Positions 1 through 48,573 of a stretch of 64,000 nucleotides of DNA are shown here, one piece after another. The translations under genes and the position numbers were made by a program. The stretch is from assembly GCA_027449605.1 (NCBI GenBank), contig DAIDLH010000116.1:51809-115808 (forward strand), given 5' to 3'. The notes under the pieces were generated by a model. It was not told where the DNA came from. It saw nothing but the letters and a program-made list of their open reading frames with translations, and did not search any database. Each line of letters starts with the position of its first letter. Position 1 is the stretch's first letter. This stretch comes from Candidatus Muproteobacteria bacterium. Its GTDB lineage: Bacteria; Pseudomonadota; Gammaproteobacteria; Acidiferrobacterales; Sulfurifustaceae.

Positions 1-455
1 TTCATCACTTCCACGTTCCAGCCGTGGCTGCCGGCGTAATAGTTGTACATGCGGAACAGGTCGCCGGCGAAGATGGCCGACTCGTCGCCGCCGGCGGCGG
101 CGCGGATTTCGAGGAAGATGTTGCGGTTGTCGTTCGGGTCCTTCGGCAGCAGCAGCGCCTGGATATCGGACTCGAGCGCGGCAATCAGTTGCCGCGCCTG
201 CGCGATTTCCTCCTGCGCCATCTCGCGGATCGACGGATCCTTGTCCGCGAGCATGACGCTGGCGGATTCGAGCTGATCACAGGCGGCGCGATAGTCGCCG
301 TACAGCTTCACCACCGGATTGATCTCGGCGTATTCCTGCGACAGCTTGCGGTACTGATCCTGTTTGCCGATGACCTTGGGATCGGCGAGCATCCGTTCGA
401 TTTCCTCAAAGCGCTGCGCAAGGCCGGTGAGCCTTGTTTCAATCGACGGGTTCAT
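1..455 (-). CDS. prfA: Peptide chain release factor 1, N-terminal part (truncated by window edge)
   Basis: RF1 reads UAA and UAG stop codons in the ribosomal A site and triggers release of the peptide. The visible 151 codons, read on the minus strand from ATG at 455, begin MNPSIETRLTGLAQRF. They run through the helical N-terminal domain into the conserved block RNIFLEIRAAAGGDESAIF. The PxT codon-recognition loop and the GGQ motif lie outside the window. It sits just downstream of hemA on the same strand, the usual gammaproteobacterial hemA-prfA order. Family assignment is secure; only the truncation is limiting. Confidence 0.95.
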   Translation of the reverse strand, partial: MNPSIETRLTGLAQRFEEIERMLADPKVIGKQDQYRKLSQEYAEINPVVKLYGDYRAACDQLESASVMLADKDPSIREMAQEEIAQARQLIAALESDIQALLLPKDPNDNRNIFLEIRAAAGGDESAIFAGDLFRMYNYYAGSHGWNVEVM

Positions 456-24035: not shown

Positions 24036-24100
24036 CGTCATGCCGGCGCAAGCCGGCATCCAGCATATTAATCTGGATTCCGGCTTGCGCTGGAATGACG
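24036..24100. repeat. GTCATGCCGGC palindromic repeat upstream of metZ
   Basis: CGTCATGCCGGCGCAAGCCG (from 24036) is mirrored by CGGCTTGCGCTGGAATGACG (to 24100). A widespread proteobacterial repeat type; a related half-unit is at 21305-21330. Confidence 0.8.
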
Positions 24101-45984: not shown

Positions 45985-46953
45985 TCAGGCAACCGTCGCT
46001 TCCGCCTGGGTATTGAGCGTGCCGAGCCAGAAGGACAAATCCCGCTCCAGAAATTCCCCGGTCGGCATGTAGTGTGAGCCGTCGCAGGAAAAAGTCAGGC
46101 CTACGAGACCGTTCATGATGTTGATCGAACTCGACCGGAGGTAAATCGTTTCATCGGCGAAGCGCAGCGCCTTGAATTCATCGAGCACGTGCCGGATCTG
46201 TTCCGGGGTGACCTTGGCGTTCGCCGGATAGGGGCAGACCGGATAGGCGAGGCAGATGTCCGGGTTGATCATCTCGTCGATATTGTGCAGCCGGTAGTTG
46301 TAGGGATCGTCGAACAGCCACAGCGAACAGCGTCCGCTCGAGAAATGGATCTTGCTGTGAAACACGCCATGGTGCGACATGAGTCGGTGAATCAGGTCGA
46401 GCACCGCGTCGATATGCTGATCCAGCAGGCTCGGCGCGCGTTCCTGCATGAACACCGTCCCGCGCACCGCCGGATCGCCGCGGAACTGCTGCCAGCGCAT
46501 CGGCGGCGGGCTCAGGCGCTTGTCCTGGATCAGATCGGCCAGCGCGAAGTCGGCGGCGATGAAGCCGAGGAGCCGGTTGTCCTTGCTCACGGCCTGCAGG
46601 GCGGTGATGCACTGTTGGGGAACGTACTGGCTGAGATAGACCGACGAGAGCATCACGCCCTTGAACGGCAAATGATTCTTCAGGTACGGCCGCTGCGACA
46701 AATCCCGCCCGCGCCAGGAAGGATCGATTCCGCTGGCCTGCACCATGGACGAAACTTCGATGCCGTTGATGTCCCAGGCATAGAGCAGATGGCAGTGGGG
46801 GATCGTGCGTATCGCCTGATGCAGCACCTGATCGAGCGCATCGGCGTCGGACCATGCCCCGATGCAACGATCGCCGAGCTTTGCCATGGGTTCGCTGATG
46901 ACTTCGGCCAGCGCCGCCTTTTTGGCCAGGATGGCCTGCTGTATGGATGACAT
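45985..46953 (-). CDS. PDC (Cache-like) sensor domain protein, soluble
   Basis: 322 residues with no membrane helix or signal peptide. The central part (WDINGIEVSSMVQASGIDPSWRGRDLSQRPYLKNHLPFKGVMLSSVYLS, split here) resembles PDC/Cache ligand-binding domains: GRDLSQRPYLK, then LLGFIAADFALADL. The C-terminal half is unassigned. Such domains normally sit outside the membrane on receptors, so a free cytosolic one is unusual. It diverges from the cyclic-nucleotide-domain gene; the 423-bp gap holds the sites listed next. Confidence 0.65.
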   Translation of the reverse strand: MSSIQQAILAKKAALAEVISEPMAKLGDRCIGAWSDADALDQVLHQAIRTIPHCHLLYAWDINGIEVSSMVQASGIDPSWRGRDLSQRPYLKNHLPFKGVMLSSVYLSQYVPQQCITALQAVSKDNRLLGFIAADFALADLIQDKRLSPPPMRWQQFRGDPAVRGTVFMQERAPSLLDQHIDAVLDLIHRLMSHHGVFHSKIHFSSGRCSLWLFDDPYNYRLHNIDEMINPDICLAYPVCPYPANAKVTPEQIRHVLDEFKALRFADETIYLRSSSINIMNGLVGLTFSCDGSHYMPTGEFLERDLSFWLGTLNTQAEATVA

Positions 46954-47252
46954 GGAGCGTCCTTTTGAATTCTGCGTTGTTAATGCGGTCCCTGGGGCGG
47001 TATTACAATCGTTCTGGATGCAGCGAGTGTAGTGGATAAAATGGCCGTTATTCTGTCCTGAAGGACGGTTCGGGCAACATGACGTTCCCGAGAAATTTTA
47101 TGTCGCCGACAGTGACACGTTCGTGACCGGCCAAACCCATCGCCGCGATGACCGACCGCGCCTGTCGCTTCAAATGCCCGGATTTGGCTTCGAGCACCCT
47201 ATGCGCCTTATATGTCACCCTCGTTCCTGGAATACCCTTGGTGCGTCAGGGT

Positions 47253-47288
47253 TTTCCGCCGGAATACAGCCAAAATTTCCGCCGGAAT
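47253..47288 (+). promoter_or_regulatory. Two identical 13-bp sites upstream of the sigma-54 promoter
   Basis: TTTCCGCCGGAAT occurs at 47253-47265 and 47276-47288; its core TTCCGCCGGAA is palindromic. The 23-bp spacing is about two helix turns. A weaker TTCCTGGAA is at 47224. Likely activator or repressor sites. Confidence 0.6.
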
Positions 47289-47299
47289 CGTCCAGTTTC

Positions 47300-47315
47300 T
47301 GGCATGTTCTTTGCT
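47300..47315 (+). promoter_or_regulatory. Sigma-54-type promoter
   Basis: TGGCATGTTCTTTGCT fits TGGCACG-N4-TTGCW with correct GG-to-GC spacing. Transcription should begin near 47326, giving a 5' leader of about 50 nt before ATG 47377. Confidence 0.7.
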
Positions 47316-47376
47316 CTTATACTGAAGCAAAGCGCAGAGATTGTTGAAAATACATGGATTTTACAGGAACGGAACG

Positions 47377-48573
47377 ATGAGTACGATTGAGACATTTCCA
47401 GGCCTGGTCGGGTTCTACACCCTGACTCCCGAGGGTCATCTGGGCTATTACGACCAGAATAAGAAGTTCATTCTCGACGCCAAGCTCACCCGGGCGTTCG
47501 CCGATTACAACGGCCGTTACCTGATGGCCTACCTGCAGAATCCGGCGCAGGGAAATTTCCGCCTCGCGATCATTCACCGGACCCAGGAGAAACGTCCCTG
47601 GGGTTCCGACACGCTGCTGCTCGAGAAACATATTCTGCGCCGGCTGTATCCGGTAACCGGCATGACGACCGAAAAGGACCTGACCGCCTTCCAGACGAAG
47701 AATCAGGAGAAAAGCATATTCCGCGGCATGGAGCTGTTCCTCGAGTACAAGGACGCCTCCAATCCGGGCATGCCGGTATTCTGCCCGGTGCTTTACGACC
47801 GCGGCGCGACGCTCGATGACTATGCGCCATTGCTGGGCCGCATGCCCACGTCGGTGGACCGGGAAACGCCGGTGGTGGAGGTCATCAATATGCTGGCCGC
47901 CATTCCCATGGCGAAACGCGACGCCGCCGAAATCGGAATACTGAAGGACAAGATATATCAGGGCATCGTCAAGAAAGGCATGCGCAAGTCCGCCGATTTC
48001 ACCCTGATCGACGATGTCCGCCGGAATACGCAGGCGGTTGCGGAGGCGGGCGACGGCGATTATTACGACGGCGGCAACAAACGCACCGAACGCAAGGTTA
48101 CGCTGGATGCTTTGGCGGCGGGCGGCAAGGGGAATTCGAACGGCGTGAATGTCAGCGCCTTGCTCAAGAACATCGCTTCATCGCTGGTCGGTCAGCCCGA
48201 ACCGGCGGATCCGGCGGCGATCAAGATTTTCCGCCGGTTTCGCGATCTCGATCATGACAAGCTCGAAGCGATCGCGGCGCAATCCCTGATTTACAAGGTG
48301 CCGCCGGGCACCCAACTGCTCGACCGCGGCACCAACGACTCCTTCAATCTCTATCTGATCGATGGCACGGTGAAACTGGTGGCCGCCGACGGCGTGGAGA
48401 AATTCATCGAGGGCGGGACCGCCACGGCCGGCAATCCGATCTCATGCCTCAAGCCGCGCATGTATACCGTGTCCGCCTTCACGCGCGCGGCATTTCTGTG
48501 GCTGGACGACAATCTGATCGAAGAGGTTTTGCGCCGCAAGACCGAGCCGTTGCGACGCGGCGGCGCCAAGTAG
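47377..48573 (+). CDS. Protein with C-terminal cyclic-nucleotide-binding-type domain
   Basis: 398 residues from ATG 47377 (ACAGGAACGG upstream). The N-terminal 190 residues (FPGLVGFYTLTPEGHLGYYDQN, then LFLEYKDASNPGMPVFCPVLYDRG) match no domain I know. A polar linker leads to a C-terminal CAP-like fold (about 280-390: FRDLDHDKLEAIAAQSLIYKVPPGTQLLDRG, YLIDGTVKLVAADG). The usual phosphate-binding cassette R/A residues are not obvious, so ligand binding is uncertain. No HTH is visible. Predicted sigma-54 control. Confidence 0.7.
   Translation: MSTIETFPGLVGFYTLTPEGHLGYYDQNKKFILDAKLTRAFADYNGRYLMAYLQNPAQGNFRLAIIHRTQEKRPWGSDTLLLEKHILRRLYPVTGMTTEKDLTAFQTKNQEKSIFRGMELFLEYKDASNPGMPVFCPVLYDRGATLDDYAPLLGRMPTSVDRETPVVEVINMLAAIPMAKRDAAEIGILKDKIYQGIVKKGMRKSADFTLIDDVRRNTQAVAEAGDGDYYDGGNKRTERKVTLDALAAGGKGNSNGVNVSALLKNIASSLVGQPEPADPAAIKIFRRFRDLDHDKLEAIAAQSLIYKVPPGTQLLDRGTNDSFNLYLIDGTVKLVAADGVEKFIEGGTATAGNPISCLKPRMYTVSAFTRAAFLWLDDNLIEEVLRRKTEPLRRGGAK

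Follow-up and report, generated by a model that had tools for sequence, protein, structure and literature searches.

Among the genes of the 64,000-nt stretch of DNA analysed here (hereafter the window), one encodes an orphan protein behind a sigma-54-like sequence and a pair of identical palindromes, which raises the question of what controls this gene and what its product might do. The first-pass annotation had answered with a good sigma-54 site, paired palindromes just upstream, a regulator encoded outside the window, and a product that joins an unknown N-terminal domain to a CAP-like domain without a helix-turn-helix (HTH). Genome comparison led us to a partly different answer, to which we assign a probability of about 0.72: the gene would be served by a conserved sigma-54 promoter and encode a signalling adaptor, and the palindromes would be private to its lineage. 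The DNA most likely stems from a Sulfuricaulis species (family Acidiferrobacteraceae). The features concerned are collected in Table 1.

Table 1. Features of the orphan gene and its surroundings (window coordinates, or residues of the orphan protein).
Feature	Position	Strand	Basis and remarks
Divergent PDC/Cache-like protein gene	45985..46953	-	Synteny, presence/absence; weak PDC match (E 0.16), below cut-off
Palindromic site 1, TTTCCGCCGGAAT	47253..47265	+	Direct reading; centred at about -67 relative to the predicted start
Palindromic site 2, identical to site 1	47276..47288	+	Direct reading; centre about -44
Sigma-54 (-24/-12) promoter TGGCATGTTCTTTGCT	47300..47315	+	Matrix score and conservation across Sulfuricaulis
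Start region and early leader, TTGAA-N4-CA-GGGAT block	47316..47362	+	Alignment; conserved less strictly across the genus than the promoter
Orphan protein, 398 aa	47377..48573	+	ATG at 47377; in-frame TTG at 47341
New N-terminal domain, signature LTxFQKKNREKS	residues about 1-205		
Degenerate cNMP-like domain	residues about 275-385		

The sequence TGGCATGTTCTTTGCT fits TGGCAC-N5-TTGCW and, as read directly, carries a GG doublet (47301-47302) and a GC doublet (47313-47314) spaced by 10 bp, which predicts a transcription start at about 47326. We scanned the 64-kb window with a sigma-54 matrix built for the analysis from the known consensus; TGGCATGTTCTTTGCT reached 19.6 bits, the window maximum, and the runner-up 13.9 bits. 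Homologues of the gene, mostly full-length, were found in 18 of the 20 family genomes. In the genus, TGGCATRTTCNYTGCT lies upstream of six of the eight orthologues, 74-160 bp 5′ of the start codon, and the orthologue of Sulfuricaulis limicola HA5 carries TGGCATATTCCTTGCT. When the upstream regions of six Sulfuricaulis species were anchored at the sigma-54 site, pairwise identity was 91% in the 16-bp core and 87% in the 20 bp from -24 onward, versus 23-37% in the successive 20-bp blocks that cover the 200 bp farther upstream. This contrast between a conserved core and poorly conserved flanks is the footprint that a used promoter would leave.

Beyond the genus, sites scoring 14.8-16.3 are present in G004, G005 and one paralogue of G013, and the remaining family homologues outside the genus score about 5 or less. 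Taken over the family, 9 of the 18 homologues have a score of at least 13, compared with 1.4% of 450-bp upstream regions by chance. This mode of control is not universal, as a sigma-54 site is lacking in several family members outside the genus. The site has decayed in G016 and G017 (TGGCAAATTCCTTACC; TGGAATAATCCTAACC), which form one clade (support 100/99) and have lost the GC of the -12 element. The comparison gives good support to a real and conserved sigma-54 promoter that would drive the orphan gene, and we infer that transcription actually proceeds from it.

The leader block downstream is not recognisable in the same two genomes, G016 and G017, that are without the promoter. Its sequence ATACATGGATTT (47350-47361) matches 10 of 12 positions of the CsrA consensus (P 0.007 against shuffled leaders), and a CsrA-like sequence of this quality occurs at the same place in the leaders of only three of the six species. 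We regard it as a candidate and a lead only, with a putative function.

A true sigma-54 promoter would need RpoN and an AAA+ enhancer-binding protein (EBP). The genome encodes a full-length RpoN from an intact rpoN gene and six EBPs, namely NifA, NtrC, PrsR (of the PEP-CTERM system), a Zra/AtoC-like response regulator, a second AtoC/NtrC-like regulator and a PAS-type EBP. The contig to which the window belongs contains no EBP gene, in agreement with the earlier placement of the regulator outside the window. Elsewhere in the genome, strict sigma-54 sites are located upstream of nifH, nitrate-transport-like, PEP-CTERM-like and other plausible targets, which we named from our own reading of the sequences; such targets indicate that the sigma-54 system is in use. 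Together with the best score in the window and the 91% core identity, the presence of rpoN and the EBPs upholds the first judgement that this is a good sigma-54 site.

Across the family, only NtrC and the Zra/AtoC-like regulator follow the distribution of the promoter in almost every genome, each of them missing once, in an incomplete genome. Because several promoter-bearing genomes lack them, we rejected PrsR, NifA, the C90 regulator and the PAS-type EBP as general activators. By phyletic profile, NtrC and the Zra/AtoC-like regulator fit as the remaining candidate activators. Neither an NtrC-like site (TGCACC-N5-GGTGCA) nor a Zra-like site (GCTAC-N7-GTAGC, a pattern taken from the Zra/AtoC-like regulator's own conserved target promoter) was matched better in the upstream regions of the orphan gene than in shuffled sequences, and our comparison revealed no conserved upstream activating site for this promoter.

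Further sigma-54 promoters were observed outside the window. The Zra/AtoC-like histidine kinase/regulator pair faces the sigma-54 promoter TGGCACAGCGATTGCT, which serves a small secreted protein (L161:4662-5012; L278, L279, L280, L281, L283, L284). The site upstream of that promoter, GCTACAAATTTTGATGC-TTGCTACAAAANNCAAGCATAGC, is strongly conserved across the genus, and its version in L282 is a perfect GAGCTAC-N7-GTAGCTC. Sigma-54 promoters are also located at nifH and other nif-like genes, along with the NifA gene (L103, L104, L105), and this Sulfuricaulis species probably fixes nitrogen.

We then turn to the palindromes. Direct reading confirmed two identical 13-bp sites with an 11-bp palindromic core, placed 23 bp apart from start to start; the core, TTCCGCCGGAA, is a 5+5 palindrome with an unpaired centre. 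Single palindromes of 11 bp are ordinary (126 in the window vs 104-127 expected), and chance alone should yield 0.2-0.6 exact repeats of a 13-mer within 60 bp per window. No tandem 13-mers of palindromic form arose in 120 simulated 64-kb sequences. The two sites are the only exact copies of TTTCCGCCGGAAT in the 2.81-Mb genome. A genome-wide TTTCCGCCGGAAT regulon was considered and rejected, the near matches lying mostly within ORFs or in a hairpin repeat, and an Rfam search of the orphan gene's upstream region returned nothing credible.

The first-pass annotation had taken the pair for the enhancer of the promoter, and this part of it did not hold. The palindromes are absent in the sister species G014, although its protein is 92% identical and its sigma-54 site intact, and they are likewise absent upstream of all other orthologues. 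Two TTCCGCCGGAA cores 4-30 bp apart occur in one of the 369 class genomes, which is the source genome. Within this genome, we also read the 130 bp preceding other sigma-54 promoters and did not encounter the palindromes there. Such a distribution argues against a conserved enhancer, and the palindromes are probably a lineage-private feature rather than a conserved control site of the promoter.

What else they could be depends on how this distribution is weighed against their form. Binding sites for the activator or a co-regulator of the promoter, unusually close at -44 and -67, would explain why exact 13-bp twins lie on about one helix face (23 bp, about 2.2 turns) only 11 bp upstream of the promoter, in an arrangement that is not expected by chance and is unique in the genome here. 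We consider this unlikely in view of their absence from a sister species with the same promoter, from every orthologue, from 368 further class genomes and from the regions 5′ of the other sigma-54 promoters read; moreover, sites this near to -24 would normally crowd the polymerase. A role as a species-specific operator is one that the palindromes may have. Alternatively, they may play no part in regulation and be remnants or recombination products of the hairpin repeat GGATTCCGGCTTYCGCCGGAATGAC. This repeat has about 23 copies in the genome and none in the reversed control, and its 3′ arm is exactly TTCCGCCGGAAT, that is, TTTCCGCCGGAAT minus the first base; site 1 even runs on as ..ACAG, comparable to ..GACAG in the repeat. 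The window palindromes, however, represent the 3′ arm alone and do not show both arms with a short loop: the partner arm ATTCCGGC is absent at both sites, the loop and the left flank differ, and two solo arms 23 bp apart would be an odd remnant. We keep this origin as a tentative option, with the balance of the evidence somewhat against it. The dispersed hairpin repeat GGATTCCGGCTTYCGCCGGAATGACG, with about 23 genome copies, is also seen in the window at about 24075-24100.

The promoter itself could also be read differently, with the sigma-54-like sequence unused and the main transcription coming from a sigma-70 promoter, for example one with TATACT at about 47319. TATACT is located directly 3′ of the -12 element, and the lack of a sigma-54 site in several homologues outside the genus would be compatible with this idea, but a proper -35 element is absent at 17 bp (TTCTGG is found there). 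Moreover, it is the -24/-12 pattern that makes up the conserved core, and the other species do not keep TATACT; we give the sigma-70 explanation hardly any weight. We prefer a conserved sigma-54 promoter whose neighbouring twin palindromes would not be its ancestral enhancer; they would represent either a recently gained operator near the promoter or material related to the hairpin repeat.

The divergent gene on the other side of the promoter shows a related pattern of presence. In other members of the genus, this PDC-type gene accompanies the sigma-54 promoter in synteny, and it is missing in G016 and G017, the clade with the decayed site. The joint loss of the promoter and the PDC gene is a single event and gives no more than a hint that the two genes work together. 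We searched for a sigma-54 promoter belonging to the divergent gene and detected none. Both this genome and the sister species encode a short paralogue that corresponds to the C-terminal half of this neighbour and lies behind a strong sigma-54 promoter of its own (L109/L156 and L151).

The orphan protein belongs to a family of uncharacterised proteins of ~400 aa, and its orthologue in a MAG named Sulfuricaulis is 67% identical. The N-terminal part gave nothing convincing in Pfam, NCBIfam or PDB sequences, which bears out its description as new. Structure prediction for three sequences yielded a mean pLDDT of 31, and what we say of the N-domain fold and of the state of the cNMP pocket is drawn from sequence only. 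In the PDB profile search, the cNMP part alone was matched convincingly; the C-terminal part aligned with structurally solved domains that bind cGMP or cAMP, with E values of 2e-7 and higher. At the curated cut-off of PF00027 the window protein had no match, and 7 of the 17 homologues matched this model weakly (E up to 0.1, best 0.0007).

The canonical phosphate-binding cassette has the form FGE...R(A/S)A. The Glu of this FGE-type cassette is missing in all 17 aligned homologues, in which Arg361 is invariant, and canonical cAMP binding is doubtful on this ground; the cNMP-fold domain has probably lost it. An HTH was found neither as a family match nor as a remaining stretch of chain, the protein ending about 20 residues past the cNMP domain, and the earlier view of a CAP-like domain without an HTH stands in that the C-terminal part is cNMP-like and nothing of the kind follows it. 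The FtrB model aligned with 61 residues (E 3e-5), a match that falls far short of the model's cut-off.

Among the matches examined, the nearest cNMP domains were those of cNMP-HDOD and cNMP-cNMP-rhodanese proteins. The full architecture was restricted, in the 369 class genomes, to the source family and two genomes of another family. The latter are gammaproteobacterial as well and encode 709-aa chains (L073:595-2724 and L074:595-2724, both on the - strand) in which the N-domain and the cNMP-like domain are followed by a C-terminal HDOD domain, absent in the window protein. This fusion suggests a signalling adaptor role for the orphan protein and provides a concrete lead to its pathway. The cNMP-cNMP-rhodanese arrangement is a recurrent gammaproteobacterial architecture (L064, L077, L087), once followed by a PP2C phosphatase domain, and its first cNMP domain resembles that of the window protein.

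In the explanation that we propose, the orphan gene would be transcribed from the sigma-54 promoter, with RpoN and an AAA+ EBP encoded elsewhere as requirements. Its product would be a small signalling adaptor, in which the new N-terminal domain is joined to a cNMP-fold domain serving as a protein-interaction or alternative ligand-sensing module. It would act through an output partner and not by DNA binding, and we infer that this partner is a separate protein in Sulfuricaulis. A more elaborate proposal can be formulated, namely a new Acidiferrobacteraceae signalling module made up of a sigma-54-controlled adaptor with a non-cAMP ligand, paired with the PDC-type protein and with HDOD in trans, and furnished in one species with a newly gained twin operator; we think it very unlikely.

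With this locus, the probable RpoN regulon of the sulfur-oxidising Acidiferrobacteraceae would gain an uncharacterised family defined by a new N-terminal domain and a degenerate cNMP domain; no RpoN regulon of these bacteria was found in the literature that we searched. The locus also advises caution in reading operators from a single genome, because comparison set the conserved promoter apart from palindromes that look regulatory and are not conserved.

Compared with known systems, the promoter resembles sigma-54 (-24/-12) promoters in its TGGCA-N6-TTGCT sequence with GG-N10-GC, in its AT-rich start region and in the company of rpoN and EBPs in the genome, with 77 bp to the start codon here, but differs in having no recognisable or conserved upstream activating site. 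The window palindromes share the arm TTCCGCCGGAAT with REP-like dispersed hairpin repeats, whereas the second arm and the hairpin are lacking. With CRP/FNR transcription factors such as CAP, the orphan protein has the cNMP-fold domain in common; unlike them, it carries this domain at the C-terminus, has no HTH, lacks the ribose-contacting Glu and gives only weak matches. It departs from cNMP-HDOD proteins (PF00027-like plus PF08668) in the missing HDOD and in an extra N-terminal domain foreign to Pfam, yet these proteins, along with the cNMP-cNMP-rhodanese type, have the closest cNMP-like domain, and two distant homologues of the whole protein end in HDOD. Among the known cNMP-type signalling proteins, the orphan protein represents an undescribed variant.
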